From: Candidatus Kryptoniota bacterium
Lineage (GTDB): Bacteria > Bacteroidota > Ignavibacteria > Kryptoniales > JAKASW01
Direction of reading: 5' to 3'
Assembly: GCA_024641705.1 (NCBI GenBank)
Contig: JAHECO010000001.1
Span: 321,897 to 385,896 of the forward strand
DNA: 64,000 bases
Translations under genes and position numbers: made by a program
Notes under the pieces: model-generated
The model's database searches: none
Seen by the model: only the letters and a program-made list of their open reading frames with translations
Told to the model about the DNA's origin: nothing
Shown here: piece by piece, positions 6,473 to 59,257 of the stretch
How positions within the stretch are numbered: the first letter of the stretch is position 1
Layout: each line of letters begins with the position of its first letter

Positions 6473-6538
6473 ATGAATGATGGTCCGGGAGTTCATACCT
6501 TGCCTGTCATTCGGCTACTGCAGATAGACTGAATTAGA

Positions 6539-8717: not shown

Positions 8718-8744
8718 TTCGAGGAGAAAGGTCGTGTCATCCCA

Positions 8745-10524: not shown

Positions 10525-10594
10525 ACCGGAGTCCGCGAGGGTGTACAATCGCGCTTTCTTGCAGCGTCGTATCTGACGGCGCGGGGGAGATGTA

Positions 10595-11563: not shown

Positions 11564-11702
11564 AGGTCCGCCGAATGGATGAAATGAAGACGGAAATATC
11601 GGCAGGATGCCCGGAGGATGTGCGCGCGGCGCGATTGCCAAACAGTCTGACGGAAACTGCCCCTCGTGCGGGATATGGCGGTCTTAATAATCTTGGATTG
11701 AT

Positions 11703-13055
11703 ATGAGAATAGCAGTAGTCGGTGCCGGCATTTCGGGATTGTCGGCGGCGCATTTCCTGAGAAAAGCGGGCGCGGAAGTTGCGGTGTTCGAGAAGAATCC
11801 CGGCCCGGGAGGCACGATCGGCACGAAGGTCATCGACGGTTATCTCGTCGAGAGCGGACCCAACAGCACATCGGAAACTAACTTTGTCATAGATGAGCTC
11901 CTGTCCGATCTGTCGATCAGCGACGAGAAGGTCTACGCCGACGAGACATCGAAGTACCGCTTCATCCTGCGCAACGGCAGGCTTCACGCGCTGCCGGGCG
12001 GACCGGGGTCGTTCATCTCGACGAAGCTGTGGACTCTCGGGGGCAAACTGAGGTTGTTTGCCGAGCCGTTTATAGGAAAGGCCGGGTACGAAGAATCGAT
12101 TGCCGATTTCGTCACGCGCAGGCTTGGGGGCGAGTTTTTGGACTATGCGATAAACCCGTTTGTCGCGGGCGTCTATGCCGGCAGCCCCTCTGACCTCAGC
12201 GTACGTGCCGCGTTCCCCAAACTCTACGCGCTGGAGGAAAAATACGGTGGACTCCTGAAGGGGGCCCTGCTGGGAGCGCGTGAGAGGAAGAAAAGAGGGA
12301 CGAAAGCAAGGGCGTCCGCAAAACTGTTCTCCTTCCGAAGCGGCATGGGGATACTCACATCCACCATTGCCCGTGAACTTGGCGAATCGATACGGTTCGG
12401 AGCGGCGGTGGAGAGTGTTAAACGGGACGGTACCAGCTTCGTCGTGAACTACTCGCTCAATGCCAAACTCGACAGCGGGATTTTCGACGGCGTAGTCCTT
12501 TCCGTCCCGGCGTTCGCCGCGGCCGCTATTGTGAAGTCATGGCTGCCCGAGCTGTCGAGCGAGCTGGCGAAGATCAAGTATCCTCCCGTCGCGGTAGCGG
12601 TCCTCGGCTACAGGCGCGAGCAGGTGAGAACAGACCTGAAGGGGTTCGGATTCCTGGTGCCGGAGGTTGAAAGCAGAAAGATACTCGGGACGATCTGGAG
12701 TTCCAGCATATTCCCCGACCGTGCTCCGGAGGGATGCGTGGAATTCACTTCATTCATAGGAGGCTCGAGGCAGCCCAAGCTGACCGCGCTCTCCAGTGAG
12801 GACGTTGCCAGGGTGGTACACGAGGAGAACGCCGCGCTGATGAAGATAGACGGAGTGCCTGTCTTCCGCGCCGTCAGCAAATGGGAGAAGGCAATCCCCC
12901 AGTACAACATAGGCCACCTGTCTATCCTGGACGCAGTCAGGCACGTTGAAAGCCTGTACAAGGGATTTTATATTTGTTCGAACTATAAGGACGGAATTTC
13001 CGTCGCCGACTGCATTGCGAACGGGAAGAAAACCGCCGAGAGTTTTTTAGCCTGA
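11703..13055 (+). CDS. hemG: FAD-dependent protoporphyrinogen/coproporphyrinogen oxidase (HemY type)
   Basis: 450 residues. The N-terminus is a dinucleotide-binding fold, VVGAGISGLSAAHFLRKAG, followed by VFEKNPGPGGTIGT; later GPNSTSE, YAINPFVAGVYAG and the C-terminal flavin contact YKDGISVADCIANGKKTAE are typical of HemY/PPOX. It oxidises protoporphyrinogen IX, or coproporphyrinogen III if this lineage uses the alternative route. Separated from hemH by 139 bp without another gene. The symbol hemG is used in its broad sense; this is not the short flavodoxin-like HemG. Confidence 0.94.
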   Translation: MRIAVVGAGISGLSAAHFLRKAGAEVAVFEKNPGPGGTIGTKVIDGYLVESGPNSTSETNFVIDELLSDLSISDEKVYADETSKYRFILRNGRLHALPGGPGSFISTKLWTLGGKLRLFAEPFIGKAGYEESIADFVTRRLGGEFLDYAINPFVAGVYAGSPSDLSVRAAFPKLYALEEKYGGLLKGALLGARERKKRGTKARASAKLFSFRSGMGILTSTIARELGESIRFGAAVESVKRDGTSFVVNYSLNAKLDSGIFDGVVLSVPAFAAAAIVKSWLPELSSELAKIKYPPVAVAVLGYRREQVRTDLKGFGFLVPEVESRKILGTIWSSSIFPDRAPEGCVEFTSFIGGSRQPKLTALSSEDVARVVHEENAALMKIDGVPVFRAVSKWEKAIPQYNIGHLSILDAVRHVESLYKGFYICSNYKDGISVADCIANGKKTAESFLA

Positions 13056-13133
13056 AGGAAAGCTTCGCCGCGAGCACGCGGTGAGATTATCCGAATTTTG
13101 ACCGGAGTTCATTGTGGAAAGGAGTAATATGCC

Positions 13134-14150
13134 ATGATTACCATGACTGAATATCAGAAGAAAACCGGTTTCCCGACCGTGAGGATGAGAAGACTGAGGA
13201 TGACCGAGACGATTCGGGAGATGGTGCGCGAGACCGTGCTGCAGCCGTCGGACTTCATCTATCCGATGTTTGTTGTGCCGGGCAAGAAGGTGCGCCGCGA
13301 AATCTCGTCGATGCCCAACGTGTTTCAGCTTTCGGTTGACGAGCTCGTGCGCGAATGCGAGAGCGTTTACAAGTCGGGGGTGAAGTCGGTAATCCTGTTC
13401 GGAATACCTTCACATAAAGACGAGTACGGCTCCGAAGCTTACGATGAGAACGGCATAGTCCAGCAGGCAATCAGGGAGTTGAAGAAGCAACTGCCCGACC
13501 TGTTCGTCATAACGGACGTCTGTCTATGCGAGTACACTTCGCACGGCCACTGCGGCGTTCTGCGCGAGATATCCCCCGGGCAGGTGGAAATTGTGAACGA
13601 TGAGACCCTTGACCTTCTGGCCAAAGAAGCGCTGACGCACGTGCAGGCGGGTGCCGACATGGTCGCACCGAGCGACATGATGGACGGCAGGGTCGCGGCG
13701 ATAAGAAACCTCCTTGACGAGAACGGGTTTCTCTCGACGCCGATCATGAGCTACGCGGCAAAATATGCCTCCGGTTTCTACGGCCCGTTCAGGGACGCGG
13801 CGGAGTCGACCCCGAAGTTCGGAGACCGCAAGAGCCACCAGATGGATCCCGCCAACACGAACGAAGCCGTCCGCGAGGTCGCGCTCGACATAGACGAAGG
13901 GGCGGATATCGTGATGGTCAAGCCCGCACTTGCATACCTCGACGTGATCTACCGGGTGAAGAACGAATTCAGGATGCCGACGGCAGCATACCAGGTGAGC
14001 GGCGAATATTCGATGATCAAGGCGGCCGCGCGAAACGGCTGGCTCGACGAACCGAGGATCATGATGGAGACGCTCACGGCCATAAAGAGGGCCGGCGCGG
14101 ATCTGATACTCACGTACTTCGCGGTCGACGCGGCGAAACTGCTCAGGTGA
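13134..14150 (+). CDS. hemB: Delta-aminolevulinic acid dehydratase (porphobilinogen synthase)
   Basis: 338 residues. Condenses two ALA molecules to porphobilinogen. It has the cysteine-type zinc site ([14 protein letters not shown]), the two Schiff-base lysines in [17 protein letters not shown] and [11 protein letters not shown], and [10 protein letters not shown]. The ATG at 13134 follows AAAGGAG; an earlier ATG at 13129 stops at once in its frame. A small hairpin follows the stop at 14155. Confidence 0.97.
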
Positions 14151-14154
14151 TTTT

Positions 14155-14175
14155 CCGAAGGTTCAATACCTTCGG
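14155..14175. other. Hairpin after hemB (GAAGGT/ACCTTC type)
   Basis: CCGAAGGT-TCAAT-ACCTTCGG makes a perfect 8-bp stem 4 bases after the hemB stop and 14 bases before the next GTG start. No T-run follows, so it is not an ordinary intrinsic terminator. Similar core sequences sit at 15185 and 25190. Confidence 0.55.
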
Positions 14176-14189
14176 AAGGTAGAGACGCA

Positions 14190-15173
14190 GTGGAGAGGGT
14201 CTTTGTCACAGGGGCCAGCGGGCTTATAGGTTCGAACCTTTGTCACAAGCTGAGCACGCTCGGTTACGAAGTGACGGGCATGGTGCGGGAGAAATCCAAC
14301 CTTCTCGGGCTCAAAGGCTTTCAGGGCAGGATAGTCCGCGGCGACATACTTGACGAGGCGGGGCTCGCGAGATCTATGGAGGACGCCGATTATGTCTTTC
14401 ATACTGCAGGGTTGGTAAGTTTCGACAACAGGAGGCGTGAAGAACTCAATCGCGTAAACTCAGCCGGGGTTCGCAGCGTGGTTGGCGCCGCTCTGAGGGC
14501 CGGAGTGAAGCGTGTCATCCACACGAGTTCGGTCGCTGCGATCGGCATTCCCGAGGAGGGCAACATCGCGGATGAGGGGGTCGAATACAACAGGTTCAGA
14601 CACAACGTATCCTACGGCGACAGCAAACATCACGGGGAAGTCGAGATTAGAAAGGGGGTCGAACGCGGCCTCGACGCGGTGATCGTTAATCCGGCATCCG
14701 TGATTGGACAGAGAGATGTCTATTTCCACTCCGGAATACTCCTTAAGATCTTGAGAGGGAAGAGGGTTGTCCCCTACCTCCCGGGCGGTATGTGCGTCGT
14801 GGGTGTAGATGACGTCGTGGAAGGCGAGATCGCGGTCCTCAATGCAGGCAGGACGGGTGAGCATTACATACTTGGAAGCGAAAACATGACCTTCAAAGAG
14901 CTCTTCGGGCAGATTTGCCGCGTTGTCGGTGCAGCTGCTCCCCGCTTGCAGGTACCGATTTGGGGGGCAAGAGCGTCGGCTTCCTTGCTCGAAATCCTGT
15001 CGGTCCTGACCGGGAAGCCTCCCGTCCTGACGAAGGCGCATGTTGTGAGCGCGACTCTACCTCATTATTTTTCATCCACGAAGGCGATGCGCGAACTCGG
15101 CTACCGTCCGAGCCCAGTCCTGGAATCGATAAGGAAATCGTACGCCTGGTATCTTGAGAATGATTTGATGTGA
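14190..15173 (+). CDS. NAD(P)-dependent epimerase/dehydratase family protein (extended SDR)
   Basis: 327 residues, GTG start. Rossmann motif VFVTGASGLIGSNL, active-site set HTSSVAAIG and YGDSKHHGE (YxxxK, with the usual upstream Ser), and VNPASVIGQRD. It resembles dihydroflavonol-reductase-like and nucleoside-sugar epimerase-like SDRs acting on unknown substrates. It lies inside the haem block between hemB and hemL, which is unusual for this family; a role in tetrapyrrole metabolism is not shown by the sequence. Confidence 0.85.
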   Translation: MERVFVTGASGLIGSNLCHKLSTLGYEVTGMVREKSNLLGLKGFQGRIVRGDILDEAGLARSMEDADYVFHTAGLVSFDNRRREELNRVNSAGVRSVVGAALRAGVKRVIHTSSVAAIGIPEEGNIADEGVEYNRFRHNVSYGDSKHHGEVEIRKGVERGLDAVIVNPASVIGQRDVYFHSGILLKILRGKRVVPYLPGGMCVVGVDDVVEGEIAVLNAGRTGEHYILGSENMTFKELFGQICRVVGAAAPRLQVPIWGARASASLLEILSVLTGKPPVLTKAHVVSATLPHYFSSTKAMRELGYRPSPVLESIRKSYAWYLENDLM

Positions 15174-15184
15174 GTATGTATCTA

Positions 15185-15216
15185 ACCTCGCGAGGGTTCC
15201 TTAACCTTCGCAAGGT
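15185..15216. other. Hairpin before hemL (GAGGGTT/AACCTTC type)
   Basis: GCGAGGGTT-CCTT-AACCTTCGC forms a 9-bp stem with one G-T pair, extended outward by ACCTC against AAGGT with one mismatch. It starts 12 bases after the SDR stop and ends 21 bases before hemL. No T-run follows. Related in core sequence to the hairpins at 14155 and 25190. Confidence 0.55.
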
Positions 15217-15236
15217 CGGAAACCAAAGGAGAAAGC

Positions 15237-16535
15237 ATGAAGAATCTCAATACGAAGAAGAGCAGCAAACTTTTCGATGAGGCGAAGAAATATCTCCCGG
15301 GCGGGGTGAATTCACCCGTCAGGGCGTTCAAGTCGGTGAAGCGCGATCCCCTGTTCATCAGCAGGGCGAAAGGACAGTATATATACGACGTCGATGGGAA
15401 CAGGTTCATAGACTACGTCGGGTCGTGGGGCCCGATGATACTCGGCCACGCCCATCCGGCAGTGATTGCTGCCATAAAGAAAGCGGCGACAAACGGGACC
15501 AGTTTCGGAGCCCCGACGGCGAGCGAAGTGGAAATGGCCAGGCTCGTCCGGAAGATGATGCCGTCGGTGGAGGTCGTCCGGATGGTAAACAGCGGCACGG
15601 AGGCAACGATGAGCGCGGTCCGCGTGGCGAGGGCCTTCACGAACCGCGAGAAGATCGTAAAGTTTGCCGGCTGCTATCACGGGCATTTCGACAGCTTCCT
15701 CATCAAAGCCGGATCGGGCGCGACCACTTTCGGTACGCCCGACTCGCCCGGCGTGCCCGGGGATCTCGCCGCGAAGACGCTTGTGGCGGAGTTCAACGAT
15801 CTGGAGTCGGTAAAGAGATTGTTCGAAGACAACCGCGGCGAGATCGCGGCTGTTATTGTCGAACCCGTGGTCGGAAATATGGGGGTTGTCAATCCGAAAG
15901 GTGGGTTTCTTCTCGGCCTACTGGACGTGGCACATTCGAATGGCGCGCTGCTCATACTCGATGAAGTGATGACAGGTTTCAGGCTTGCGAGAGGCGGCGC
16001 GCAGGAATTGCTCGGCATAAGGCCTGACCTCACGACTTTCGGGAAAATTATCGGCGGCGGACTCCCCGTCGGTGCATATGGAGGGAGGCGCGAGATAATG
16101 AGAAGCGTTTCTCCCGACGGCCCGGTCTACCAGGCAGGGACTCTCTCCGGCAACCCGCTGGCGATGGCGGCTGGGCTCGCGCAGTTGAAGATCCTAGACA
16201 AGCAGAGGGGTATTTACAGGAGACTGGAGAAACTCGGGAAACTGCTGGAGGACGGGATAAACAGAAACATGGTGAAGCTCGGTTTGAGTTACACTCTCAA
16301 CCGCGCCGGTTCGATGTTTACGCTGTTCTTCACGAGTGAGCGAGTGCACGATTTCAATTCAGCGCTCGCATGCGATACAAACAGGTTCGCCGCATACTAC
16401 GGCGAAATGCTGAAACGCGGCATCTATCTTCCCCCGTCGCAGTTTGAGGCGGCGTTCATCTCGGCTGCACACACGGAACGCGACATAGAAAAAACTATCG
16501 CGGCGAATTACGATTCGCTCAAGGCGATCAGTTGA
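15237..16535 (+). CDS. hemL: Glutamate-1-semialdehyde 2,1-aminomutase
   Basis: 432 residues. PLP enzyme converting glutamate-1-semialdehyde to 5-aminolevulinate. Motifs: YLPGGVNSPVRAFK, VNSGTEATMSAVR, CYHGHFD, ILDEVMTGFR, and the PLP lysine in TTFGKIIGGGLPVGAYGG; also YQAGTLSGNPLAMAAG. An AAAGGAG site precedes the ATG. Together with hemA it shows that this organism uses the C5 pathway. Confidence 0.97.
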   Translation: MKNLNTKKSSKLFDEAKKYLPGGVNSPVRAFKSVKRDPLFISRAKGQYIYDVDGNRFIDYVGSWGPMILGHAHPAVIAAIKKAATNGTSFGAPTASEVEMARLVRKMMPSVEVVRMVNSGTEATMSAVRVARAFTNREKIVKFAGCYHGHFDSFLIKAGSGATTFGTPDSPGVPGDLAAKTLVAEFNDLESVKRLFEDNRGEIAAVIVEPVVGNMGVVNPKGGFLLGLLDVAHSNGALLILDEVMTGFRLARGGAQELLGIRPDLTTFGKIIGGGLPVGAYGGRREIMRSVSPDGPVYQAGTLSGNPLAMAAGLAQLKILDKQRGIYRRLEKLGKLLEDGINRNMVKLGLSYTLNRAGSMFTLFFTSERVHDFNSALACDTNRFAAYYGEMLKRGIYLPPSQFEAAFISAAHTERDIEKTIAANYDSLKAIS

Positions 16536-21630: not shown

Positions 21631-23247
21631 GTGCCAAAGCGGCTTTCACAACAGATAATCATTTCCTTGACGATTATCGTCATGGTGGTATCGGGGGTTT
21701 CCGGATATATCAGCCTGAAGAACCAGGAGCGCGAGATCCTGCAGGCCATGATCACGGGGGCCGACCAGCTCTCCAAAGGGATCACGAGTGCAACATGGCA
21801 CGCGATGCTGGCCGACGACCGGTCGGCAGCCTACGAGGTGATGCAGACAATCGCCGCCAATCCGGGGATCAGCCGCATCAGGATATTCAACAAGGAAGGG
21901 AGGGTGATGTTCTCGACGAAAGCGGTCGACGAGAAGCAGGTGAACAAGAGTGCCGAAGCCTGCGCCATGTGCCACGCCTCATCGAAGCCGCTCGTGAACA
22001 TTGATGCCTCCTCGCGAGCCAGGATTTTCCGCCCCGCCGACGGGAACAGGCAGCTCGCGATGATCACGCCTATCTATAACGAACTTTCCTGCAGCGACGC
22101 CCCGTGCCACGCTCATCCGAAGACGACGAACGTGCTGGGAGTCCTCGACGTCGCGTTCGACCTGGGGCCTCTCGATTCAGAGTTAAGTGCGGCAAGAGTT
22201 GAAGTCCTAGCGGTCACCGGCATCCAGATTGTTCTCATAGGACTCTTTATCGTCTTCTTTACCCGTCGCTTCGTCGACAAGCCTATCAATCAGCTGATTG
22301 CAGGGACCCGGGCGGTCAGCGAGATGCAGCTCGATCACGTTGTCGAGATCACCTCCAGCGCGGATCTCGGAGAGCTCGCGCACGAGTTTAACGTTATGAG
22401 CGAGCGGCTCAACAAGGCGATGGCGGAGCTTAACCAGGCTACCCAGGATCTCGAGCTGAAAGTCAAAGACAGAACTAAGCAGCTGGAGGTGGCACATCAG
22501 AAGCTCCTGCAGAGCGACCGGCTTGCATCGCTCGGTCAGCTGTCCGCTACCGTGGCACACGAAATAAACAACCCTATATCAGGTGTCCTGAATCTCGCGA
22601 TGCTCCTCGACAGGATCATGAAGGAGGACGGTATCCCGAAAGACCGGCTCCCCGAGTTCAGGAGGTACCTCGGCCAGATCATAGATGAAACGACCCGGGT
22701 CGGAAGGATCGTGTCCGACCTCCTCGCCTTCTCGCGGAGGTCGAAACCGCAGAGCACGAACATGGACCTGAACGGGGTTATCAAAAGCACCCTTCTGATA
22801 CTCAGACACAGGCTGGAGCTCGGGGACATCGCGCTGGAGCTTCATCTGTCCGATACACTGCCGCTTGTGGAATGCGACGGTTCGCAGATGCAGCAGGTTC
22901 TTATAAACCTTGTGATGAACGGCGCCGAAGCGTGCCAGAACAAAGGCCACGGTACGATATCGATAATGACGAGACGGGAAAACGAATCTGTCGTTCTCCA
23001 GATATCCGACACCGGGGACGGGATTCCCAAAGAAGCTCTTCCCAGGATCTTCGATCCCTTTTTCACGACGAAAGGCGAGGTGAAGGGGATCGGACTGGGA
23101 CTGTCAGTGGCCTACGGGATTGTCGACGCGCACGGGGGCGATATCAGCGTCGAAAGCACCGTCGGTATGGGAACTGTATTTACGGTCACTATCCCTATCA
23201 AGAAATCGCCGGTTCAGTCGGGCGAACTCACCGGAGTGAAGGGCTGA
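21631..23247 (+). CDS. Membrane sensor histidine kinase with a c-type-haem motif in the sensor domain
   Basis: 538 residues, GTG start. TM1 at about residues 8-25 (IIISLTIIVMVVSGVSGYI); a periplasmic domain of about 170 residues with a haem-binding ACAMCHA (CxxCH) and a second CSDAPCHAHP (CX4CH-like); TM2 (IQIVLIGLFIVFF); a HAMP segment; a coiled linker; HisKA with VAHEINNPISG; HATPase_c with LVMNGAEA, DTGDGIP and GIGLGLSVAYGIV. It should sense redox state or a small gas/ligand through a covalently bound haem. Its stop overlaps the ATG of the archaemetzincin gene, and a sigma-54 activator follows, making one three-gene unit. Confidence 0.9.
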   Translation: MPKRLSQQIIISLTIIVMVVSGVSGYISLKNQEREILQAMITGADQLSKGITSATWHAMLADDRSAAYEVMQTIAANPGISRIRIFNKEGRVMFSTKAVDEKQVNKSAEACAMCHASSKPLVNIDASSRARIFRPADGNRQLAMITPIYNELSCSDAPCHAHPKTTNVLGVLDVAFDLGPLDSELSAARVEVLAVTGIQIVLIGLFIVFFTRRFVDKPINQLIAGTRAVSEMQLDHVVEITSSADLGELAHEFNVMSERLNKAMAELNQATQDLELKVKDRTKQLEVAHQKLLQSDRLASLGQLSATVAHEINNPISGVLNLAMLLDRIMKEDGIPKDRLPEFRRYLGQIIDETTRVGRIVSDLLAFSRRSKPQSTNMDLNGVIKSTLLILRHRLELGDIALELHLSDTLPLVECDGSQMQQVLINLVMNGAEACQNKGHGTISIMTRRENESVVLQISDTGDGIPKEALPRIFDPFFTTKGEVKGIGLGLSVAYGIVDAHGGDISVESTVGMGTVFTVTIPIKKSPVQSGELTGVKG

Positions 23248-23828
23248 TGCGAAAGGTTTACGTTTCCCCGGTGGGAGCTGTCGGCGGAGAAATGATGACG
23301 ATGATCGCCCGTCACGTGAGCGAATTGTTCGGGTTCGAGGTCGAGAGGTACACCTCGTTCCCCGAGCCTGACTATGCGCTCGATGGAAGGAGGATGCAGT
23401 ACAGTTCCACGCTGATCCTGCAGAACCTCGCGCAGGTCTGTCCGCCTGATGCCGTCAGATTCCTTGTGGTCACCGGAGCCGACCTGTTTATCCCGATGGT
23501 TACCTTCGTTTACGGCCAGGCGCAGCTGTCTGGGAGAGTCGCGATAGTCTCTCTCGCGAGAATGGCACAGGAGTTCTACGGTCTGCGTGCTAACAAGGAA
23601 CTCATGATACGCCGCATGAGAAAAGAGGTGGCACACGAACTGGGGCACACTTTCGGGCTCGTGCACTGCCGCGACAGGTCATGTCTCATGTCGCTCTCGA
23701 CCGAAATCCCCCAGATCGACGTGAAGTCGGACGATTTTTGCAGAAGCTGCTGGACGGTATTGGAGGAGGAACTTATGAAACTGAGGAAAGAAAGGAAGAA
23801 GAACAAAGTAGTGGAGTTACGCAGATGA
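23247..23828 (+). CDS. Archaemetzincin-family zinc metalloprotease
   Basis: 193 residues. Shows the archaemetzincin zinc signature AHELGHTFGLVHC (HExxHxxGxxHC) followed by further cysteines (CLMSLS, DFCRSC), the second zinc-site pattern of this family. No signal peptide, so probably cytosolic. Its start overlaps the kinase stop by one base and its stop overlaps the response-regulator ATG by 4 bp, so it is translated as part of the two-component operon. Substrate unknown; a link to signalling is inferred from context only. A longer in-frame reading upstream is just the shadow of the kinase gene. Confidence 0.9.
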   Translation: MRKVYVSPVGAVGGEMMTMIARHVSELFGFEVERYTSFPEPDYALDGRRMQYSSTLILQNLAQVCPPDAVRFLVVTGADLFIPMVTFVYGQAQLSGRVAIVSLARMAQEFYGLRANKELMIRRMRKEVAHELGHTFGLVHCRDRSCLMSLSTEIPQIDVKSDDFCRSCWTVLEEELMKLRKERKKNKVVELRR

Positions 23829-25183
23829 AAACGCAATGGGAAATACTCGTGGTAGACGACGAAGAGGTGATGAGAGAATCTTTGGTGGCGTGGCTGCGCG
23901 AAGACGGCTACGGTGTCGATTCCGCCGCGTCGGGCAACGCCGCGATCGAGAAGGCGAAGGAAAAAGATTACGCGATTTACTTCATCGATTTGAAAATGCC
24001 CGGCGGGATAGACGGTATCGAGACGATGATGGAGATTAGAAAATTTCACCCCGATGCCTCGATAATCATCATCACCGCCTACGCCACAGTCGACACGGCC
24101 ATTTCCGCCATGAAGGAAGGGGCGCAGGAGTATATCGTTAAGCCCTGCAACCCTAAGGAAATTTCGATCCTCGTGGAGAGGATAATAAAGGTGAAGAATC
24201 TCCAGCGGGAGAATATGATACTGAGAAAGAAGCTGACCCGGCAGTACAGTTTCCACGATATAATCAGCAAGAATCCCAGGATGCACCACATCTTCGAGCT
24301 GGTACAGGAAATCTCGAGCCTGAAGAGTACGGTGCTCATCCAGGGCGAAAGCGGTACGGGGAAGGAGTTGCTGGCCAGGGCTATCCACTATTCGGGAGAC
24401 CGGGCGTCGAAGCCGTTCATCGGGGTCTCCTGCGCGGCACTTGCCGAGACACTGCTGGAATCCGAGCTCTTCGGCCACGAGAAGGGGGCGTTCACCGGCG
24501 CGGTTGCGCAGAAGAAGGGCAAGTTCGAACTCGCGGACGGCGGAACGATTTTTCTCGATGAGATCGGGGACATCTCTCCGAAACTTCAGATGGACCTGCT
24601 CCGCGTGCTGCAGGAAAGGAGTTTCTACAGGGTCGGCGGGACAGAGGAGCTGACCGTGGACGTCCGTGTTATCGCGGCCACGCACAGGGATCTTTCCGAA
24701 GCCGTGGCAGCGGGAACATTCAGGGACGATCTCTACTATCGCCTCAATGTGATAAACATACAGATCCCACCTCTCAGGGAGAGGCGCGAAGATATACCCA
24801 TACTTGTCAGAAGCTTCATGGAACGGCTTTCGCACGAGCTCGGCAAAGAAATAGAGGATATTACGGAATGCGGGCTCAAACTCCTGATGGATTACAACTG
24901 GCCGGGCAATGTCCGCGAACTTGAGAACGCGGTCGAAAGGGCGATGGTGACATGCAAGAATGCCGTTCTTACGGATGAGGATTTCGGGTTTCTCGAGCAA
25001 AACGGCTCGAAGAAGCAGTCATGGAATGTGCCCGATAACCTTCCCCTTACGGACGTGGAAAAGCAGGTCATCGCAGCGACGATCAGACGGACAGGCGGAA
25101 ACATAAAGGAGGCGGCCTCGGTACTCGGGATTGACAGGTCGACGCTTTACGAGAAGATAAAGAGGTACGAGATACAGAGGTGA
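23825..25183 (+). CDS. NtrC-type sigma-54-dependent response regulator
   Basis: 452 residues. Receiver domain [16 protein letters not shown] with the phospho-acceptor Asp in [13 protein letters not shown]+ domain with Walker [14 protein letters not shown], the sigma-54-contacting GAFTGA loop (KGAFTGAV), Walker [13 protein letters not shown]-terminal Fis-type [28 protein letters not shown]. It activates sigma-54 RNA polymerase, presumably after phosphorylation by the kinase encoded two genes upstream. Start at 23825, overlapping the previous stop (ATGA). A candidate sigma-54 promoter is found upstream of the redox operon at 33006-33019. Confidence 0.95.
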
Positions 25184-25726: not shown

Positions 25727-25778
25727 GTCACGGACCAATCCGTGACTGAGAAGGAGGACGACCGGATGGGATTGCGGT
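25727..25778. repeat. Right direct repeat flanking the REP-transposase remnant
   Basis: TCACGGAC-CAA-TCCGTGA hairpin, then GAGAAGGAGG and ATGGGATTGCGG. It copies the hairpin, ribosome site and first codons of the transposase (left copy at 25252-25302), after which the sequence runs into the end of the minus-strand gene at 25778. It looks like the 5' end of a second, lost element. Confidence 0.55.
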
Positions 25779-26620
25779 CACGGCTCGAGGAATATTTCCC
25801 TCCAGACGCCGTCCCAGTCGGCATCCGGATAATTCATAGTCAGATCTTCAACCAGCTCTCCGCCGTCCGCAAGATCAATTCCTACCTCCTCTGAAGCAAG
25901 CGCCATTTGAAGCCGCTCGATCTCTCTCGTAATCCACGGGCGAATCTCTTCCCCATTCAGTAAGTGGCGCAGGTCGCGGTCGTCCGGCGGGGCCACTCTG
26001 AGATAGAACCTGCTGCCCGGGCCGCCAGTCTCCACGACCTTCCCGTCCACAGGCGAGAGCACACGGATTCTCGATCCATCCTTGAGGAGAAACCATCCCT
26101 TCCCGTTCACCGTGAGCATGCTTCCGGCTCGCGGGAGCTCCGCGCTCGCGCCGTTTCTCAGGACTCTCTTCCCAAATTCGTCGAGCCCGACCGTGAGAGT
26201 CCCGTCGGCTTCCTTCCTCACCCACGTGTGGCCCCGATGATACAGGCGATCGAGAGGCATCCTGAGTCCGCGGGACATCTCCCTGTCCGGCGCCATTCCC
26301 GCTGTGGCCTCGCCCGCCGCAATCTTAGTTGCGGCGAACTCTCTGTGAAACCTGCAGGTACGACAGTCGAACCCGTTCGGACATATCCTGTCGCTTACAT
26401 CGCCGGTGAAAACATGGCGGCAGGTTCTCGCAAAATCACCGAGGTCGTTGAAATCGACATGCCACCTGATCCCATCTAGATTCTTTGATTTCAGATCGCG
26501 CAGAGCCCGAACTGCGGCGAGCCCGCAGCTTGCGATAAGTATCCCGACGACGGAATAGAATATAGTCAGGAATACTATTTGTCCCGTCTCCCAGCTAAAG
26601 CCGTAAACCCACGGAAGCAT
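25778..26620 (-). CDS. Membrane-anchored GcvH-like (lipoyl-fold) protein of the redox operon
   Basis: 280 residues. One TM near the N-terminus (IVFLTIFYSVVGILIASCGL), then a cysteine motif TCRHVF...RICPNGFDCRTCRFH, then a glycine-cleavage-H-like domain (HRGHTWVRKEADGTLTVGLDEFGKRVL, later SPVDGKVVETG). In true GcvH the lipoylated Lys lies seven residues before the SP of YSPVSGEV; here that position is Gly (LLKDGSRIRVLSP), with a Lys two residues earlier, so lipoylation is doubtful. Last gene of the operon, 3 bp after the NrfD gene. Probably an accessory or electron-transfer partner of the membrane complex; role unknown. Confidence 0.75.
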   Translation of the reverse strand: MLPWVYGFSWETGQIVFLTIFYSVVGILIASCGLAAVRALRDLKSKNLDGIRWHVDFNDLGDFARTCRHVFTGDVSDRICPNGFDCRTCRFHREFAATKIAAGEATAGMAPDREMSRGLRMPLDRLYHRGHTWVRKEADGTLTVGLDEFGKRVLRNGASAELPRAGSMLTVNGKGWFLLKDGSRIRVLSPVDGKVVETGGPGSRFYLRVAPPDDRDLRHLLNGEEIRPWITREIERLQMALASEEVGIDLADGGELVEDLTMNYPDADWDGVWREIFLEP

Positions 26621-26623
26621 AAG

Positions 26624-27865
26624 TCAGTCTCCTTGTAGTCTGATTGCGCCGGCCTCCTGGGGGAATAGCCGCAGGTATCTGAATGATAATGAGTAAACTA
26701 TTACGCCATACGCAACTACGAAAAGAAACGCCGCCACTTCCTGCCAGCTCGGCGAGTACAGCATGAACTTATCGAACGGCAATGTCGGCAGAGAAAGGGT
26801 CTGTATCGTCATCACGAACCTGTTAAGGAGTATACCGCAGCAGACGAGAAATGACGAGAAAACCAGCCAACCCACTCGAAGCTGTTTGTTTCCCGCCAGA
26901 AGTAGTAAGGCGGGGACCAGGCCGAAAACAACGACCTCAAGAAACAGAATCCACACGTTGAAAGGTGCCCAAAGGAAGAAGCTCATACCCGACAGCCCGA
27001 ACTCAGGAACGGTTTTGTTGAGCCATCCGAGTGTGTCGACCGACTTCAAGAGGACATAGACGATAAGGAGGATGCCGGAAATTCTTGCGAGCAGCCTGCT
27101 CACATTGTCTGTCACAAGTCTCTTACCGCTGATCTTCGACACGAGCCATGTTGTGAGGAGGATGAAGCTCGGTCCGGCGGCCACGGCAGAAACGATGAAC
27201 AGGAAGAAGGTGGTCGGCCAGATACCGATTCCCTCTCTGAAAGCGAACGGCCGTCCCTGGAGAACTCCGTACAAGCCCCCCAGCGAGCCCTGGTGAAAAA
27301 AGGAGAGAAACGTCCCGACTCCCGCGAGTATCGGCATGACCTTGTGAAGCTCGAATTCGAAGACAAGAAATGCCGGTATGTCTTTCAGCTTTCTGTTCTT
27401 CATTAAGATAGGAGCGTACTCGATGGCGAGTACCGTAAGGTAGCACGTGATGCAGAACGTAACTTCCGTCAGCATCGAATGTACGTTGGGATGCCAGAAC
27501 GTGAACCACGCACGGAGCGGCTGGCCTACGTCTACCATGAGAATCAGGATCGCTCCGCTGTAACAGATGAAACCAAGTACTACCGCGCTGCTCAGGACAG
27601 CTCTCAGCTCGTGTCTCTTCATTATGTACACGAGGAATCCGGTGAAGAAGGCGCCGGCTCCGAGAGCGATTATCGAGAGGTCGAGGAATATCCAGAGGCC
27701 GAACGCAAACCGGTTGTCCATGTTGGTCTGGTTCAGACCCTTCGAGAGGCAGAGATAGATGGCGTATGCACCCAATACTAGCATTACCGCCCACGGTGCA
27801 ATCCACAAAGCGAATCTCCGGAACGGAGCGCGCTGGGCGCCGCGTGCGACGAGGTGCCTATCCAT
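26624..27865 (-). CDS. NrfD/PsrC-like integral membrane quinone-interacting subunit
   Basis: 413 residues with about ten hydrophobic segments (for example WVMLVLGAYAIYLCL, IIALGAGAFFTGFLVYIM, AVVLGFICYSGAILILMVDVGQPL). The GAGAFFTG and DxGxPLR-type patterns are those of the QrcD/ActC/NrfD branch of the polysulfide-reductase membrane family, which binds quinones without haem. The gene overlaps the end of the iron-sulfur gene by 8 bp. It should anchor the cytochrome-MopB-FeS module in the membrane and exchange electrons with menaquinone. Confidence 0.88.
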   Translation of the reverse strand: MDRHLVARGAQRAPFRRFALWIAPWAVMLVLGAYAIYLCLSKGLNQTNMDNRFAFGLWIFLDLSIIALGAGAFFTGFLVYIMKRHELRAVLSSAVVLGFICYSGAILILMVDVGQPLRAWFTFWHPNVHSMLTEVTFCITCYLTVLAIEYAPILMKNRKLKDIPAFLVFEFELHKVMPILAGVGTFLSFFHQGSLGGLYGVLQGRPFAFREGIGIWPTTFFLFIVSAVAAGPSFILLTTWLVSKISGKRLVTDNVSRLLARISGILLIVYVLLKSVDTLGWLNKTVPEFGLSGMSFFLWAPFNVWILFLEVVVFGLVPALLLLAGNKQLRVGWLVFSSFLVCCGILLNRFVMTIQTLSLPTLPFDKFMLYSPSWQEVAAFLFVVAYGVIVYSLSFRYLRLFPQEAGAIRLQGD

Positions 27866-28663
27866 TGCGCTCCGCCTTTCCGGCGAAATCTTCTTCTCCC
27901 AGCCTCCTCACCCACTCACGCTCTGAGCGATAATACACCTTCGGAGCAGTCCCAAGATTTTCCAGAAGCCGGAAAGTCTTGCCGTCCTCGAAGAGGCGGA
28001 ACACGTTGGAGCTTTCGTCGAGAAGATCGCCGAATGTTATAGCCTTCGCCGGGCAAGCTTCAACGCATGCCGGCACGTAATCTGACAGATCTATGTCACG
28101 TGCACCACGGACAGCCGCCTTTTCGCGTGCCGCCTGAAGCCGGTGAAAGCAGAAGTTGCATTTCTCCACGACCCCCCGCATCCGCGGCGCCACATCGGGA
28201 TTCAGCGCACCCTCCATCCCTTTCGGCCACTCAGGGTCCCACCAGTTGAAGTACCTTGCGTGATACGGGCATGCTGCCATGCAGTACCTGCATCCGAGAC
28301 ATCTTACCGGGATCTGCCCGACGATTCCGGTAGCCGAATCGACTTCCACCGCGTTCTGCGGGCAGACGGAAACGCAGGGGGATGATTACCGCATTGCTGA
28401 CACGAAACAGGAAAGTAAACCGACTCGCTCTCCGGGTAACTTTTCCCGTTGTCGGCCCTGTACACTTTCATCAATGTGATGCCGGTCCTGTCCGTTGATT
28501 CCGGCGGTCCCGGCGGGACGTTGTTCTCGATCGCACATGCTACCATGCATGCACCGCAGCCAGTGCAACGATCCAGGTCAATGACCATCCCGTATCGTGC
28601 GGTCCGATGTTTCCGTCCGGAGCTGGCTACGCCGGGGATATTTCTGCTGATGTCAGTCGCCAT
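27858..28663 (-). CDS. 4x[4Fe-4S] ferredoxin-type subunit, interrupted by a frameshift
   Basis: Two frames together make a complete DmsB/PsrB-type protein of about 268 residues. Upstream part: RCTGCGACMVACAIEN and SCQQCGNHP; downstream part: VDSATGIV, RCLGCRYCMAACPYHARYFNWW, KCNFCFHR and CVEACPAKAITFG. The join is at a run of five G (plus strand 28377-28381); six would restore CQQCGNHPPCVSVCPQNAV, a perfect CxxCxxxxCxxxC site. All four cluster sites are then present. Overlaps the MopB gene by 37 bp if the first ATG is used. Either a sequencing error or a real lesion that would disable the complex. Confidence 0.85.
28377..28381. other. Frameshift site in the iron-sulfur gene
   Basis: A run of five G on the plus strand (five C in the coding sense). 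Adding one base keeps the cysteine pattern and links the two open frames without any loss; all flanking motifs on both sides fit one protein. Confidence 0.75.
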
Positions 28664-30819
28664 GTCGAATTGCTCTCTATTTTGCAGATGTCAAGTATGG
28701 CATCATCGTTTTGAGGTTCAACTCTTTCGAAACTCCTAGGAGCCGGGCCGACCGATGCCTCGAGCACTCCCGGCATGACTGAAGCGTCGAGGCGTACTGT
28801 AACCCTTGCGGAACCCGACTCCGTCGTGACGGCCGCGACGGCTCCGTCGGTCAGCCCTCTCTCTTTGCCCGTCACCGGATTGATTGACACTGTGTTTCCT
28901 GTTTTCATCAAATCCGATTCCCTGTATAGCTTCGTCATAATCGTGTTTTCCTGCGCGATCGTTCCCGCTCCCCGCGTCCCGACCGGAACAAGAGTAAGCG
29001 TGCCTGTCCCATGATCACGCTCCGCCGTGGATGCTATGCGATCGAAGCTGGCGCCATCCAATCCAAGAAACGAGAATCCCATCGAGGGTACTCTCTCCGC
29101 GCGCTCGTCCGTCCAGCACCCACCGTGTTCCATTATCTCGTGGAGCCTGGGACCGGCCAGCCTGGACAATTTGGTGGTTTCTCCTGATGCCGGATCGAAA
29201 ACGAAGCCTCTGCGCCCGGAGAAGATCCGGTCGATTCTTCTTTTGATGAGCCCTTCCGTCGTCATGGATTGGAAATCTGGATCGGGATGTGCTGCGATCA
29301 TGGCAGCCATCCTCTTCAGAAACTCGAGAGGTTCTGCAGACTGTCCGCGAGAGGTGTCCAGCTGCCTGGTAATTCTGTACGACGCTAGAGAAGCGCTTGC
29401 GGGAGACGGCAAATCACCGGTAGTTTCCATGTATCCCGGTGACGGTAGGAGGTAATCCGCGTGGCGTGCCGCTCCCGCAAGGTGGGAGGCAAAGCTGATA
29501 ACAATCGGATTAGTTGCGACCAGCTTCTGTCGGATCAGGCTCCAGGGCATTGCGTCACCCGAGTCCGCACCGTCTATTATCAATACCTTGATAGAATGAT
29601 CCGGCAGATCAACCAACTGCGTTTCGTCGACCAGGTGATCGTTCCGCTCTAACGGGCCCGGCAATTCACCTCGCGCGACCAATTCGCCTTTCGTACCCAC
29701 TGCGCCGAGGAGGATATTCAGATCCATGAACAGGATCTGCTCTTCAAGACTGAACGGACCGCCGGCGTGGCTTCCTCCGAAAACTATCAAGGAGGGCTTA
29801 TTGGCGGCAAGCTCTCTCGCGATCCCTGCGATCTTCTCAGCGGGTATACCGGTCTTCGCGCCGACGTTAGCGGGGGAAAATCTCTTGGTCAGTTCTCTGA
29901 AAGATCTTCCGGAGCCGTTGTCGAAATCTTCGGAGCGCTCGCGCAACTTCCCAATGTCGCACAACCCTTCGGCGAGCAGAACGTGAGAAAGTCCCAGCGC
30001 CAATGCTCCCTCTGTCCCCGGTTTCACCGGGATCCATTCGTCGGCAAGCTGCGCGGTCCTGGAATGGGCGGACTCTACCTGTGTTATCCTCAACCTGCTG
30101 TTGCCGCTTCGAGTCATGGCTTCCGTAATCGCCTTGAACTGACCGGGCGTTCCCCAGCCGTCGAGTACCGGCGTTCCGAAGCTGAGGATCGTCCTGGCAT
30201 TCTCCGCGTCGAACCCAAACTCTGCACCGCGACAGTGCAGAACGGAATATATAAGTCCTGCGGGAATTTCGCTGGTCGACGGCGGATTTATGTAGACTCC
30301 TTCGTTTAGCAAGCCAAGGAACCGCCTGTAGATATATGATAGGGTCCTACTGGGCTGCATATCCATGATTGCGACCGAACCGCGATTTTCAGATGAAATT
30401 GCACGTGCGATATCGGAAGCCGCATCCTCCGCCGCTATCGGCATCAGCCTGGTATCCGTCCCGTCTCCAACCCGCCTCAAAGGGTGCAGAAGTCTGGAAG
30501 GATGATACCGGAGGAGGTGTCCCGCGATACCCATGGCGCAGAGCGATCCGGCACCGACGGGATCTCCGGCAATCCCCGACAACCCGACCGGGCGGTTCTC
30601 TACGCATCGGACCCGAACCCCGCATCCCATGGGGCACAGCGTGCAAGCGGTGTATTTGTAATTAATCCTCCCTTTCGGCGGAACCGGGATCCATGACCAG
30701 TTCTGTGTCCACTTGGCCGATTCGTCGAGCAATTTCCAAGGCAAGGGAGTGAGGATTAACCCTGCCACCGAACCGCCTATGAGCTTGAGCCAATCGCGAC
30801 GTGAAATTTTGCTCGACAT
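28627..30819 (-). CDS. MopB-family (molybdopterin oxidoreductase-like) subunit, Qrc/ACIII-like, TAT-exported
   Basis: 730 residues. N-terminal twin-arginine signal SRRDWLKLIGGSVAGLI, then a [4Fe-4S]-type site ACTLCPMGCGVRV ... GSLCAMGIAG, then MopB core segments such as FGGSHAGGP, DLNILLGAVGTKGEL and LLPSPGYMETTGDLP, and a C-terminal PVTGKERGLTDGAVA beta-barrel. In QrcB and ActB the homologous subunit carries no molybdenum; whether a pterin is bound here cannot be told. It lies between the pentahaem cytochrome and the ferredoxin genes, the qrcABCD order. Confidence 0.88.
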   Translation of the reverse strand: MSSKISRRDWLKLIGGSVAGLILTPLPWKLLDESAKWTQNWSWIPVPPKGRINYKYTACTLCPMGCGVRVRCVENRPVGLSGIAGDPVGAGSLCAMGIAGHLLRYHPSRLLHPLRRVGDGTDTRLMPIAAEDAASDIARAISSENRGSVAIMDMQPSRTLSYIYRRFLGLLNEGVYINPPSTSEIPAGLIYSVLHCRGAEFGFDAENARTILSFGTPVLDGWGTPGQFKAITEAMTRSGNSRLRITQVESAHSRTAQLADEWIPVKPGTEGALALGLSHVLLAEGLCDIGKLRERSEDFDNGSGRSFRELTKRFSPANVGAKTGIPAEKIAGIARELAANKPSLIVFGGSHAGGPFSLEEQILFMDLNILLGAVGTKGELVARGELPGPLERNDHLVDETQLVDLPDHSIKVLIIDGADSGDAMPWSLIRQKLVATNPIVISFASHLAGAARHADYLLPSPGYMETTGDLPSPASASLASYRITRQLDTSRGQSAEPLEFLKRMAAMIAAHPDPDFQSMTTEGLIKRRIDRIFSGRRGFVFDPASGETTKLSRLAGPRLHEIMEHGGCWTDERAERVPSMGFSFLGLDGASFDRIASTAERDHGTGTLTLVPVGTRGAGTIAQENTIMTKLYRESDLMKTGNTVSINPVTGKERGLTDGAVAAVTTESGSARVTVRLDASVMPGVLEASVGPAPRSFERVEPQNDDAILDICKIESNSTWRLTSAEISPA

Positions 30820-30899: not shown

Positions 30900-31532
30900 C
30901 TATTTGTGACAGCCTATGCAGCTTTCATTCACGCCCTTCGCGCGGTGGCAGCTCGCACAGTCGTCCATACTCATTCCCCGTGAAGGGGTGGAAGGGACGT
31001 TGAAGAGTGTCCTGCCAAAAATATCCAGGCTGTACCCGCTGATGCGGCTGAAGCGCGCCGGCCTGAGATTACTGGTGTACGCGTGACCGAAATGACACGA
31101 CTGACATTTGAGGCCGGCCAGCCTGACATGCGTGGCATGAGAAAAGTAGACATTCTCGGGCTGTCTTGAGTAGACCACCCAAGGTATCTCTCTCCCCGTA
31201 TTAACGTAATCCGTGACTAATCTTGTGTCTTCATTGGAAGTCCCGACAGGCTCTGAATGACAGGGCCTGCAGACTTTTGTGGCGGGTATCCCGATGAAAC
31301 GCCCGTCTTTGTCGTATGTGTGGCAGTCGACGCACTTCAGACCGATGTTGTCGCCCGTGTGGGTCTTGTGACTGAACTGGAGCGGCTGGTCGACGGACCT
31401 GAATATGAGGTAGGGGAATACAATCCAGCCGAGGAGGAGAGTCCCCGCCAAGCCGGCGAAGAACATCCTCTTCCCAGGCCGTCCGTCGGGAACTGTGGTA
31501 GCATCTTCCGTCTCATTTATAGCAGAGTTCAA
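30900..31532 (-). CDS. Pentahaem c-type cytochrome, membrane anchored (ActA/QrcA-like)
   Basis: 210 residues. A TM segment (FFAGLAGTLLLGWIVFPYLIF) then a periplasmic part with five CxxCH motifs: CVDCH, CRPCH, CQSCH, CASCH and CIGCH, plus FSHKTH and FSHATH histidines that can be distal ligands. Five haems match ActA of alternative complex III, six being usual for QrcA. It probably passes electrons between the MopB/FeS module and periplasmic carriers. Encoded 80 bp upstream of the MopB gene. Confidence 0.9.
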   Translation of the reverse strand: MNSAINETEDATTVPDGRPGKRMFFAGLAGTLLLGWIVFPYLIFRSVDQPLQFSHKTHTGDNIGLKCVDCHTYDKDGRFIGIPATKVCRPCHSEPVGTSNEDTRLVTDYVNTGREIPWVVYSRQPENVYFSHATHVRLAGLKCQSCHFGHAYTSNLRPARFSRISGYSLDIFGRTLFNVPSTPSRGMSMDDCASCHRAKGVNESCIGCHK

Positions 31533-31559: not shown

Positions 31560-32543
31560 TCAATGATCACTGTAACCGCTTGGACGCGGCGAAAAGAATT
31601 CGTCGTAAAGCAGAAGTATTTCCTCTTTGCTGAGGTGTTTGATCAGGTCGTCGCTGAACATGCCGCCGTCAGCCATCATCCGCTGGCCCTTTGCCTGTCT
31701 GTCTACGGATCTCTCCTGCGCGAATTCTGTCAGTCTCCCTGTCTCGTCCTGCATCCAGTCATGTGCTTGCTTGCCGTGGATCAGACCTCGCGCAATGTCG
31801 GAGTCCTTATGCGTGGGTCCGGCAGTCGTCGCCGGCTTGCATTCGAAGAGCCAGCCGAGGGTGTAGGGATCGGCTACCACTCTCCCCGGATCGGCTCTCA
31901 AATGACTGTTGACCGCGGATACGACCATCCTGCCCGGAAAGATCATCTGGAAATCGATTCCGCCCACGGTAAGGCTTGCCGCGGGGTTGTGTTCGCCCCC
32001 CGTGGTCGCAAATGTGAGCCTGTCAATCTTTCCGAGGACTTTCGCCAGGAAAGCGTCGATGCCGATGTGGCACGTGCCGTCCTCGTCGATGTCCGCCCAC
32101 ATGTGATTGGGCGAATAATGAAGCCAGCCGACGGTCTGAATCCCGTCCACAAGCCAGTATCCGCTCGCGTCGTCCTCGCCGGGGTCGAGTTCCGGCGCGA
32201 TAACGTCGTGTGGAGTCAGCAGCCCCGGGCTCTGCATTGTCTGAAGAAGTTCACAATACCTGTGGCTGGATGTCCCGCATCTGGTGAGGCTTGGATTGCT
32301 ATAGGGAACGTATTTCACTACCGAAGCCGCGGAGCAATACTGACAGAGCGACTCCTGAAGGAACGGGCAGTGGTCCTGGCTGGGAAGATCTTCGCAGTGC
32401 TGCTTTGCAGATGGGCACGTAACGTACGCCGGGGAGGAGCATCTTTCGCTGCTTTCGTCACCTTGGCTGCGCACGATCAATTTCTTGAATTCCGATGCGC
32501 AGCAAAATTTCACCTGAGCCTCTCTGAGAAACGGGCATCTCAT
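31560..32543 (-). CDS. Cysteine-rich GcvH-like protein of the redox operon
   Basis: 327 residues, no signal peptide. The first 100 residues hold two related cysteine modules: CPFLREAQVKFCCAS...ERCSSPAYVTC and CPFLQESLCQYCSAAS...TRCGTSSHRYC. Then a GcvH-like domain (HMWADIDEDGTCHIGIDAFLAKVLG, later FPGRMVVSAVN and DPYTLGWLFEC, matching the DPYGEGWL end of H proteins). At the lipoyl-Lys position there is Gly (VGGIDFQMIFP), so the swinging arm is absent. A polar C-terminal tail follows. The cysteines could bind Fe-S clusters or zinc. Its place in the operon suggests a soluble, cytosolic partner; function unknown. Confidence 0.75.
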   Translation of the reverse strand: MRCPFLREAQVKFCCASEFKKLIVRSQGDESSERCSSPAYVTCPSAKQHCEDLPSQDHCPFLQESLCQYCSAASVVKYVPYSNPSLTRCGTSSHRYCELLQTMQSPGLLTPHDVIAPELDPGEDDASGYWLVDGIQTVGWLHYSPNHMWADIDEDGTCHIGIDAFLAKVLGKIDRLTFATTGGEHNPAASLTVGGIDFQMIFPGRMVVSAVNSHLRADPGRVVADPYTLGWLFECKPATTAGPTHKDSDIARGLIHGKQAHDWMQDETGRLTEFAQERSVDRQAKGQRMMADGGMFSDDLIKHLSKEEILLLYDEFFSPRPSGYSDH

Positions 32544-32585
32544 CGGATCTCACCACGCTTTGGATGTGATCTCATTCCTGCACTC

Positions 32586-32894
32586 CTACTTCCGGGTACG
32601 CCGGCTTTTCTTCTTTGGATCTTCGACCTTCGGCATGCTTTCGATCCCGTCCTCGGTAACTACGAGCATTTCGTTGCCGTCAAGCTTCTCTCCGCCATCA
32701 GCCATCGTTACCCCCAGACCGTTGACTACGAACGCGTGGTCGTCGGCTTCAACACGCTCGGTAGCTCGTGCCTTCACTCGCTCTCTGATTTCTTTTAGAG
32801 CTGCGAAGCCGATGACAATGATGCATGCCAGCGTGACCAACCCTAGTACGAGATTCGTCACGTTCAACCAGAAAACTTCATCGTAAGTAAACAC
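32586..32894 (-). CDS. Small single-TM protein, first gene of the redox operon
   Basis: 102 residues. An N-terminal TM segment (VTNLVLGLVTLACIIVIGFAAL) followed by a charged helix (KEIRERVKARATERV) and a C-terminus rich in Lys/Arg. AAAAGGAGG lies upstream of the GTG/ATG start on the minus strand. Similar short anchors precede GcvH-like genes in comparable clusters, but I cannot assign a family. Probably an assembly or anchoring subunit. Confidence 0.7.
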   Translation of the reverse strand: MFTYDEVFWLNVTNLVLGLVTLACIIVIGFAALKEIRERVKARATERVEADDHAFVVNGLGVTMADGGEKLDGNEMLVVTEDGIESMPKVEDPKKKSRRTRK

Positions 32895-33005
32895 GGTTTA
32901 CCTCCTTTTACCCGGACGTGCTCCCGGTGTGGATACAGGGAGCAACACTCACGGTTGGACTTTTCTACATCTGTTCCCTGAAAGAGATCAGGTACCCTAT
33001 ATTGG

Positions 33006-33019
33006 GCAACCAATATGCC
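33006..33019 (-). promoter_or_regulatory. Candidate sigma-54 promoter of the redox operon
   Basis: On the minus strand the sequence is CGGCAT-ATTGG-TTGCC, close to the TGGCAC-N5-TTGCW consensus, with the invariant GG and GC exactly 10 bases apart. Transcription would start about 100 bases upstream of the first gene (start at 32894). A sigma-54 activator is encoded at 23825-25183. Confidence 0.45.
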
Positions 33020-33133
33020 GGACGGCCGTGACGACTCCGCCGAACGACGCAAGCGGTTGATAAAGCGTGAAATATATTTGTTACGGTTGTATCAGGCGCG
33101 ATTCATTTGTCGGGACCCGTGCGGGAATCGGCT

Positions 33134-42012: not shown

Positions 42013-42879
42013 ATGAAGATATTCGAAAAGGATGGGCACAAGATAATCTGGGGAGAAGCGATCGACGCCTTAGAGAATGTTGAAGATAATTCTGTAGATC
42101 TAATCTTCGCTGATCCGCCGTACAACATCGGAAAAAAGCTTGTGGATGTTCCCAAACGCTGGGAGTCAGACGGGTCGTATCTGAAATGGTGTTACAGATG
42201 GTTGGACATTTGCATCAGCAAATTAAGCCGCAATGGAACAATGTACGTGATGACGGCAACCCAGAATATGCCTTATTTCGATCTTTTCCTTAGAGAGAAA
42301 CTCACTATCCTTTCACGAATCGTGTGGTCTTATGATAGCTCGAGTGTTCAGGCACGCAAATATTTCGGTTCTCTGTATGAGCCTATACTCCATTGCGTTA
42401 GGAACGACAAGAATTACACCTTCAACTCTCGAGATATTCTGGTCGAAGCAAGGACTGGCGCGGTAAGGAAGTTAATTGACTACCGAAAATCGGTCCCTGC
42501 GGTTTATAATTCCAAGAAGGTTCCAGGAAACGTGTGGCACATTCCTCGCGTCAGATACCGCATGGACGAGTACGAAAATCATCCGACTCAAAAGCCTATA
42601 GCCCTTTTAGAAAGAATCATCAAAGCAAGCAGTAATGAAGGGGATTTAATTCTCGATCCCTTCTCAGGTACCTTCACGACTTCCTATGTTGCTAAGCAAC
42701 TCAAGAGGAGATCGATTGGCGTCGAGATCAACGAGGAGTATGTGAAAATAGGCCTGCGCCGGTTGGAGGTTACTACCCACTTCAAGGGAGAACGTCTTCG
42801 CAGGCAACCGAAAAGCTATGAGCACCCAATAAGCGAGAAACCAACAACAATCGATATTGGTTCAATCAAAACCTTCTAA
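42013..42879 (+). CDS. YhdJ-like adenine-specific DNA methyltransferase
   Basis: 288 residues. Beta-type order: catalytic IFADPPYNIGKKL first, then AdoMet motif LILDPFSGTFTTSYVAKQL and IGVEINEEY. Its middle, IVWSYDSSSVQARKYFGSLYEPIL, NYTFNS, LIDYRKS, VPGNVWHIPRVRYRMDEYENHPTQKP, follows E. coli YhdJ closely, which methylates the second A of ATGCAT. So ATGCAT (NsiI-type site) is the predicted target, by inference. AT-rich compared with its neighbours. The following endonuclease gene overlaps the 3' end, making a type II restriction-modification pair. Confidence 0.92.
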   Translation: MKIFEKDGHKIIWGEAIDALENVEDNSVDLIFADPPYNIGKKLVDVPKRWESDGSYLKWCYRWLDICISKLSRNGTMYVMTATQNMPYFDLFLREKLTILSRIVWSYDSSSVQARKYFGSLYEPILHCVRNDKNYTFNSRDILVEARTGAVRKLIDYRKSVPAVYNSKKVPGNVWHIPRVRYRMDEYENHPTQKPIALLERIIKASSNEGDLILDPFSGTFTTSYVAKQLKRRSIGVEINEEYVKIGLRRLEVTTHFKGERLRRQPKSYEHPISEKPTTIDIGSIKTF

Positions 42880-59173: not shown

Positions 59174-59257
59174 CAGAAAAATCTTGTTCGGATGCAAAAC
59201 AGATAGAGCTGCAGCAAGCGTATTAACTACCTTTTACCGGGCTTGTACTATGTATAG

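Follow-up and report, generated by a model that had tools for sequence, protein, structure and literature searches.

The window, a stretch of 64,000 nucleotides from a Candidatus Kryptoniota bacterium, carries an operon on its minus strand in the order p102 - CPFL-GcvH - qrcABCD - GcvHD. The first gene (32586..32894) encodes p102, a protein of 102 aa with one transmembrane (TM) segment and no Pfam or NCBIfam match, in which a W-x2-TN motif in or near the TM segment and a C-terminal LG(V/L/I)TMADGG are conserved. The second (31560..32543), directly upstream of qrcA, encodes the 327 aa protein CPFL-GcvH, whose coordinates and strand had been predicted exactly. The following four genes have QrcA, QrcB, QrcC and QrcD as their best family matches, in that order, and only QrcA scores above its family cut-off. 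They encode a QrcA-like multiheme cytochrome c (30900..31532; NF041781, 191.5 bits, cut-off 180) with 5 CxxCH motifs in its orthologs, a QrcB-like molybdopterin-family protein with a twin-arginine leader (28627..30819; NF041783, 275.5 bits, cut-off 440), a QrcC-like 4x[4Fe-4S] protein with an interrupted frame (27858..28663; NF041782, 241.7 bits for the 3' part, cut-off 400) and a QrcD-like NrfD-family membrane subunit (26624..27865; NF041784, 561.2 bits, cut-off 570) that exceeds its cut-off in six other genomes. On these matches, the four genes are predicted to encode a menaquinone reductase. The qrcC frameshift lies near position 28340 (frames 28304-28663 and 27858-28349, overlapping at 28304-28349); as qrcC is open there in the nearest relative, G009, and intact in that genome and other orthologs, the break is taken to be an assembly error or recent mutation. 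The last gene (25778..26620) encodes GcvHD, a second lysine-less GcvH-like protein with an N-terminal TM segment, a Cys motif (CRH...C...F.C..C..H), a GcvH domain and a terminal LADGG. Close to its end, each of the two GcvH-like proteins also has an ADGG motif like that of the p102 tail. In one genome (G023, L123:4697-6310) GcvHD is duplicated in tandem and the second copy has no TM segment. The gene order of the operon is fixed in Bacteroidota/Ignavibacteria, Acidobacteriota and KSB1; the Krumholzibacteriota and Eisenbacteria contigs that show it are partial.

A regulatory trio lies beyond GcvHD on the plus strand. Its histidine kinase (21631..23247; HisKA, HATPase and HAMP domains) has a periplasmic sensor region with one c-type heme motif (CAMCH) and a weak match to the PF21563 heme sensor. 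The kinase is followed by an archaemetzincin of family M54 (23244..23828, start approximate; NF033823, 155.8 bits, cut-off 145) with the full zinc motif HELGHTFGLVHC, and by an NtrC-family sigma-54 response regulator (23825..25183, start approximate), for which the best NCBIfam match is an AtoC-type regulator at 473 bits. The trio is adjacent to the operon in many loci and elsewhere in others, and the unlinked copies retain their gene order (e.g. Acidobacteriota L122 and L124). The kinase was found in 13/13 genomes with CPFL-GcvH that were tested (52-58% identity), including those where it is not adjacent. Upstream of p102 by ~125 bases, a sigma-54-like -24/-12 promoter, TCCGGCATATTGGTTGCCC, was located on the minus strand (33005..33030, coordinates approximate). 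Sites of this kind, defined by GG and GC at -24/-12 in a sequence close to TGGCAC-N5-TTGC, precede p102 in 24/40 orthologous loci against 2.4 expected, with control counts of 2/40 on the other strand and 1/40 inside genes; loci L036, L053 and L056, which have no Qrc, also carry them. None of this respiratory and signalling context, which proved the most informative, figured in the original prediction. Elsewhere in the window, the plus strand holds an apparent heme biosynthesis cluster at 5645-16535 (by sequence look hemA, hemC, hemD, hemE, hemH, protoporphyrinogen oxidase, hemB and hemL), as well as adenine-type DNA methyltransferase-like genes at 42013-42879 and 57645-60871 whose neighbours resemble restriction endonucleases.

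CPFL-GcvH consists of two 4-Cys modules (aa 1-46 and 57-102), a lysine-less GcvH domain (aa ~128-240) and a C-terminal part made up of a helix and an (L/M)ADGG motif. The two related segments on which the original prediction was built are present, CPFLREAQVKFC followed by RC...Y..C in module 1 (32406..32543, minus strand) and CPFLQESLCQYC followed by RC...H.YC in module 2 (32238..32375, minus strand), and the spacing within each is C-x10-C-x(17-26)-C-x7-C. The density of Cys had been overestimated at about 14 in 100 residues, as the first 100 residues hold 11 and the whole protein 13 (positions 3, 14, 15, 35, 43, 50, 59, 67, 70, 89, 97, 158 and 235). Patterns within the GcvH domain served to gather homologs, which means that relatives without that domain would have been missed outside the surveyed class; the resulting 45 come from five phyla or candidate phyla, namely Bacteroidota/Ignavibacteria, Acidobacteriota, KSB1, Krumholzibacteriota and Eisenbacteria, group names being those of the sequence record titles and of NCBI taxonomy. 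Four Cys in each module (3, 14, 35 and 43; 59, 70, 89 and 97) are invariant in 45/45 of these homologs, and a ninth, C158, within a G-x-CHIG-x-D motif, is kept in 44/45. Profiles of the two modules over the 45 homologs align with each other across 47 columns (hhalign, probability 98.6, E=8e-16). Moreover, the similarity score of the modules in the window sequence was reached by 0/20,000 full shuffles and by 3/20,000 shuffles in which Cys were held fixed. Chance similarity is ruled out by these comparisons, which indicate that the modules are true, homologous repeats. The proposals of a duplicated module and of Cys conserved among orthologues were thus both borne out. On the opposite strand, a 411 aa ORF (31563-32798) crosses the CPFL-GcvH gene; it was rejected as a real gene, and is probably a composition artefact, because that strand has stops in most of the orthologous loci tested.

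Neither Pfam nor PDB sequences nor Foldseek gave any match to the module, metal-binding families and folds included, so that a known zinc or Fe-S fold was rejected. Convincing matches to it among 149 genomes of the class were confined to CPFL-GcvH. Pfam and NCBIfam recognise the GcvH part only, which agrees with the original view that no protein of this build had been described. When folded alone (85 rows) the module was modelled with moderate confidence as a small hairpin followed by two short helices, and in the full-length AlphaFold2 model both modules are of low confidence. The conserved CxxC knuckle typical of Zn and Fe-S sites is absent from the modules. Probably, the modules either hold a metal or Fe-S cluster or provide thiols that work as a redox switch.

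The central domain has the barrel-sandwich GcvH fold, as had been proposed. Pfam GCV_H matches aa 141-265 (E=3.8e-8) and is also hit by 41/45 of the homologs; in the AlphaFold2 model most of this part has a pLDDT of about 90 or higher, and Foldseek aligns it with the E. coli H-protein (3a7a) at a TM-score of 0.83. Against the GcvH equivalog TIGR00527 the protein scores 31.4 bits, below the cut-off of 115.85. A conserved lysine is absent from the lipoyl hairpin (residues 188-206) in 45/45 homologs, in keeping with the original reading of the window protein; the family hairpin reads V-N-G-V-D-L...FP, with a tip that is mostly N-G and in the window protein G-G. CPFL-GcvH therefore cannot be an ordinary lipoyl carrier, and an active carrier is ruled out. 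A separate true GcvH with TIEAVKTVSD at its lipoyl hairpin is encoded in the same genome. Neither a TM segment nor a leader was found in CPFL-GcvH, the maximum 19-residue hydropathy being 0.7-1.8.

In a set of 296 genomes of Bacteroidota, the 11 that encode full-length CPFL-GcvH are also the 11 with a QrcD match over 550 bits. Among 149 Acidobacteriota draws, Qrc was present in two and CPFL-GcvH in the same two plus G324. CPFL-GcvH may be a cytoplasmic, transient maturation factor or chaperone of Qrc that delivers Fe-S clusters to QrcC or proofreads QrcB for Tat export, a possible but somewhat doubtful role: its gene directly precedes qrcA, a twin-arginine leader is present in QrcB, co-occurrence with QrcD is 11/11 in Bacteroidota and the eight Cys could carry a cluster, but not every genome with Qrc has CPFL-GcvH (G603 and G574 lack it) and, as detailed below, the protein has survived intact where Qrc was independently lost. 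It is also absent from the qrcABCD operon of Desulfovibrio, whose four genes suffice and by themselves complement a deletion (PMC13059093). It is unlikely that CPFL-GcvH is instead an additional electron-transfer subunit, with Fe-S clusters in its modules forming a cytoplasmic exit or entry for electrons of Qrc or a related NrfD complex. In favour of such a subunit are the two modules with their eight invariant Cys, encoded beside a quinone-reactive complex, and the four Cys of GcvHD. However, the Fe-S partner of QrcD-type subunits is periplasmic and these subunits have no cofactors of their own (PMC6303296), the operon encodes no cytoplasmic redox partner enzyme, and the Cys spacings are unlike common Fe-S motifs and match no solved fold.

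A closer look at the loci shows that the two partners can be separated. In four cases (G001, L053, L056 and L058) Qrc and GcvHD are missing and CPFL-GcvH, with its module Cys, is kept beside the regulator. Two more loci (L078 and L081) have CPFL-GcvH beside the regulator and no Qrc or GcvHD, on contigs that start inside the CPFL gene. The CPFL gene runs directly into the convergent regulator in all of these, and a genome-wide search in each for a QrcD ortholog (over 500 bits) found none. A further genome (G010, L034:10655-12114) has lost qrcABC and retains fragments of qrcD and GcvHD beside an intact CPFL-GcvH. Detection of p102 failed in L058, and in L078 and L081 its position falls outside the contig. 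When presence of Qrc was mapped on the CPFL tree, seven changes were needed, at least six of them forced by well-supported branches; Qrc was lost on at least six independent occasions with CPFL-GcvH retained. Almost all genomes, including those that lost Qrc, are MAGs, and where a genome is incomplete the absence of a gene counts for less; this does not apply to G001, which is 98% complete, or to loci where CPFL abuts the regulator. The opposite case is provided by the Myxococcota G603 and G574, which have Qrc genes and GcvHD with no CPFL-GcvH; in G603 the operon is wholly visible and contains neither p102 nor an adjacent trio. Exceptions are therefore seen on both sides, and the two do not occur strictly together in the genomes surveyed, which were from phyla other than Desulfobacterota. 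From these patterns, GcvHD goes with Qrc, and CPFL-GcvH, together with p102 where visible, goes with the trio. Inheritance of CPFL-GcvH follows the heme-kinase trio more faithfully than it follows Qrc, and a role as a pure Qrc subunit is weakened by its repeated retention without Qrc.

The same retention bears on the improbable alternative that the modules are structural zinc sites and CPFL-GcvH a passive structural subunit of a Qrc/NrfD membrane assembly. Small Cys4-like modules modelled as a hairpin and two short helices would fit this, and a GcvH fold without its active residue suggests a scaffold; yet persistence after loss of Qrc and the tie to the kinase trio would go unexplained, unless the protein served another NrfD complex.

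More faithful inheritance with the trio than with Qrc raises the possibility that CPFL-GcvH lets the cell read respiratory electron flow. Our preferred reading, to which we assign a probability of roughly 40%, is that CPFL-GcvH works in the cytoplasm as an adaptor, docked at the membrane and based on a metal or on thiols, which informs the kinase, archaemetzincin and sigma-54 regulator of electron flow. The protein would dock at the inner face of the membrane, with the H-protein fold, no longer able to carry lipoate, acting as a scaffold and the two 4-Cys modules supplying a metal, an Fe-S cluster or redox-switch thiols. Its place, shared with p102, may be next to QrcC/QrcD, the quinone-reactive pair, or next to a related NrfD complex, from where the state of electron flow between periplasmic cytochromes and menaquinone would be passed to the c-heme kinase, the archaemetzincin and the sigma-54 regulator. 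The trio could in turn control the p102-CPFL-Qrc operon, with the regulator presumably acting at its promoter. Among readings that cover the conservation of the Cys, the lost lysine, the link to Qrc, retention after its loss, the link to the trio and sigma-54 control, an adaptor is the simplest. Against it, a different NrfD-FeS complex is still present in the genomes from which Qrc has gone, and the true partner could be that complex; G603 has a kinase (50% identity) and regulator without CPFL-GcvH; the genomes that have lost Qrc are MAGs; and the low confidence of the module model and the lack of a CxxC knuckle also count against an adaptor of this kind.

Qrc is known from sulfate reducers, as a complex of four subunits. 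The present loci place it in Bacteroidota/Ignavibacteria, Acidobacteriota and further lineages, accompanied by additional partners that are strictly conserved. Respiratory gene clusters have put the H-protein fold to new use without lipoate, and a novel 4-Cys module has emerged and undergone duplication. What is lost and what is retained divides the system into a respiratory part, Qrc with GcvHD, and a signalling part that comprises p102, CPFL-GcvH and the kinase, archaemetzincin and regulator, a split that offers a testable idea of electron-flow sensing and of what archaemetzincins do in bacteria. More speculatively, and with the odds leaning against it, the system may represent an undescribed respiratory-chain sensor, in which a lipoyl-less H-protein with two metal-binding modules at the cytoplasmic face of NrfD/Qrc-type complexes would turn the redox state of quinone and cytochrome into a signal that runs through a c-heme kinase, an archaemetzincin acting as a cytosolic protease, and a sigma-54 regulator. 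If true, this would give the enigmatic archaemetzincins a role. Searches of the literature for GcvH with Qrc or NrfD, and for archaemetzincin with NrfD, turned up no account of a system or protein of this build.

Several known systems resemble parts of this one. The glycine cleavage H-protein (GcvH; PF01597, TIGR00527) shares with CPFL-GcvH the fold of the central domain, the HEW-like and GID/GIT-like motifs and the DPY-x2-GWLF end motif; unlike GcvH, CPFL-GcvH has no lipoyl lysine, its hairpin reads VNGVDL..FP and it has extra N- and C-terminal parts. A paralogous GcvH-FeS-NrfD-GcvH-heme kinase cluster, found in the same genome as the window (G000:C35, about 74,700-80,200, L028:7685-13157) and in many genomes of the class (also L030, L031 and L033), likewise has two GcvH-like proteins flanking FeS and NrfD proteins and a linked heme kinase, joined in other copies by a regulator and archaemetzincin. 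It differs from the CPFL operon in that the first GcvH has its own TM segment and no CPFL modules, and QrcA and QrcB are absent. Such clusters are widespread in the class and apparently undescribed. The closest relatives of the four qrc genes are QrcABCD of Desulfovibrio, which have the same A-B-C-D order and form a four-subunit complex with QrcA-C in the periplasm (PMC6303296); in contrast to that four-gene operon, the one described here adds p102, CPFL-GcvH and GcvHD. Finally, an unnamed novel family is reported beside qrcABCD in Blakebacterota/Orphanbacterota (PMC9727166), and so, like CPFL-GcvH, adjoins these genes in non-sulfate-reducers of the FCB group. Compared by definition only, that family has no Pfam match whereas CPFL-GcvH hits GCV_H, which makes p102 a likelier equivalent.
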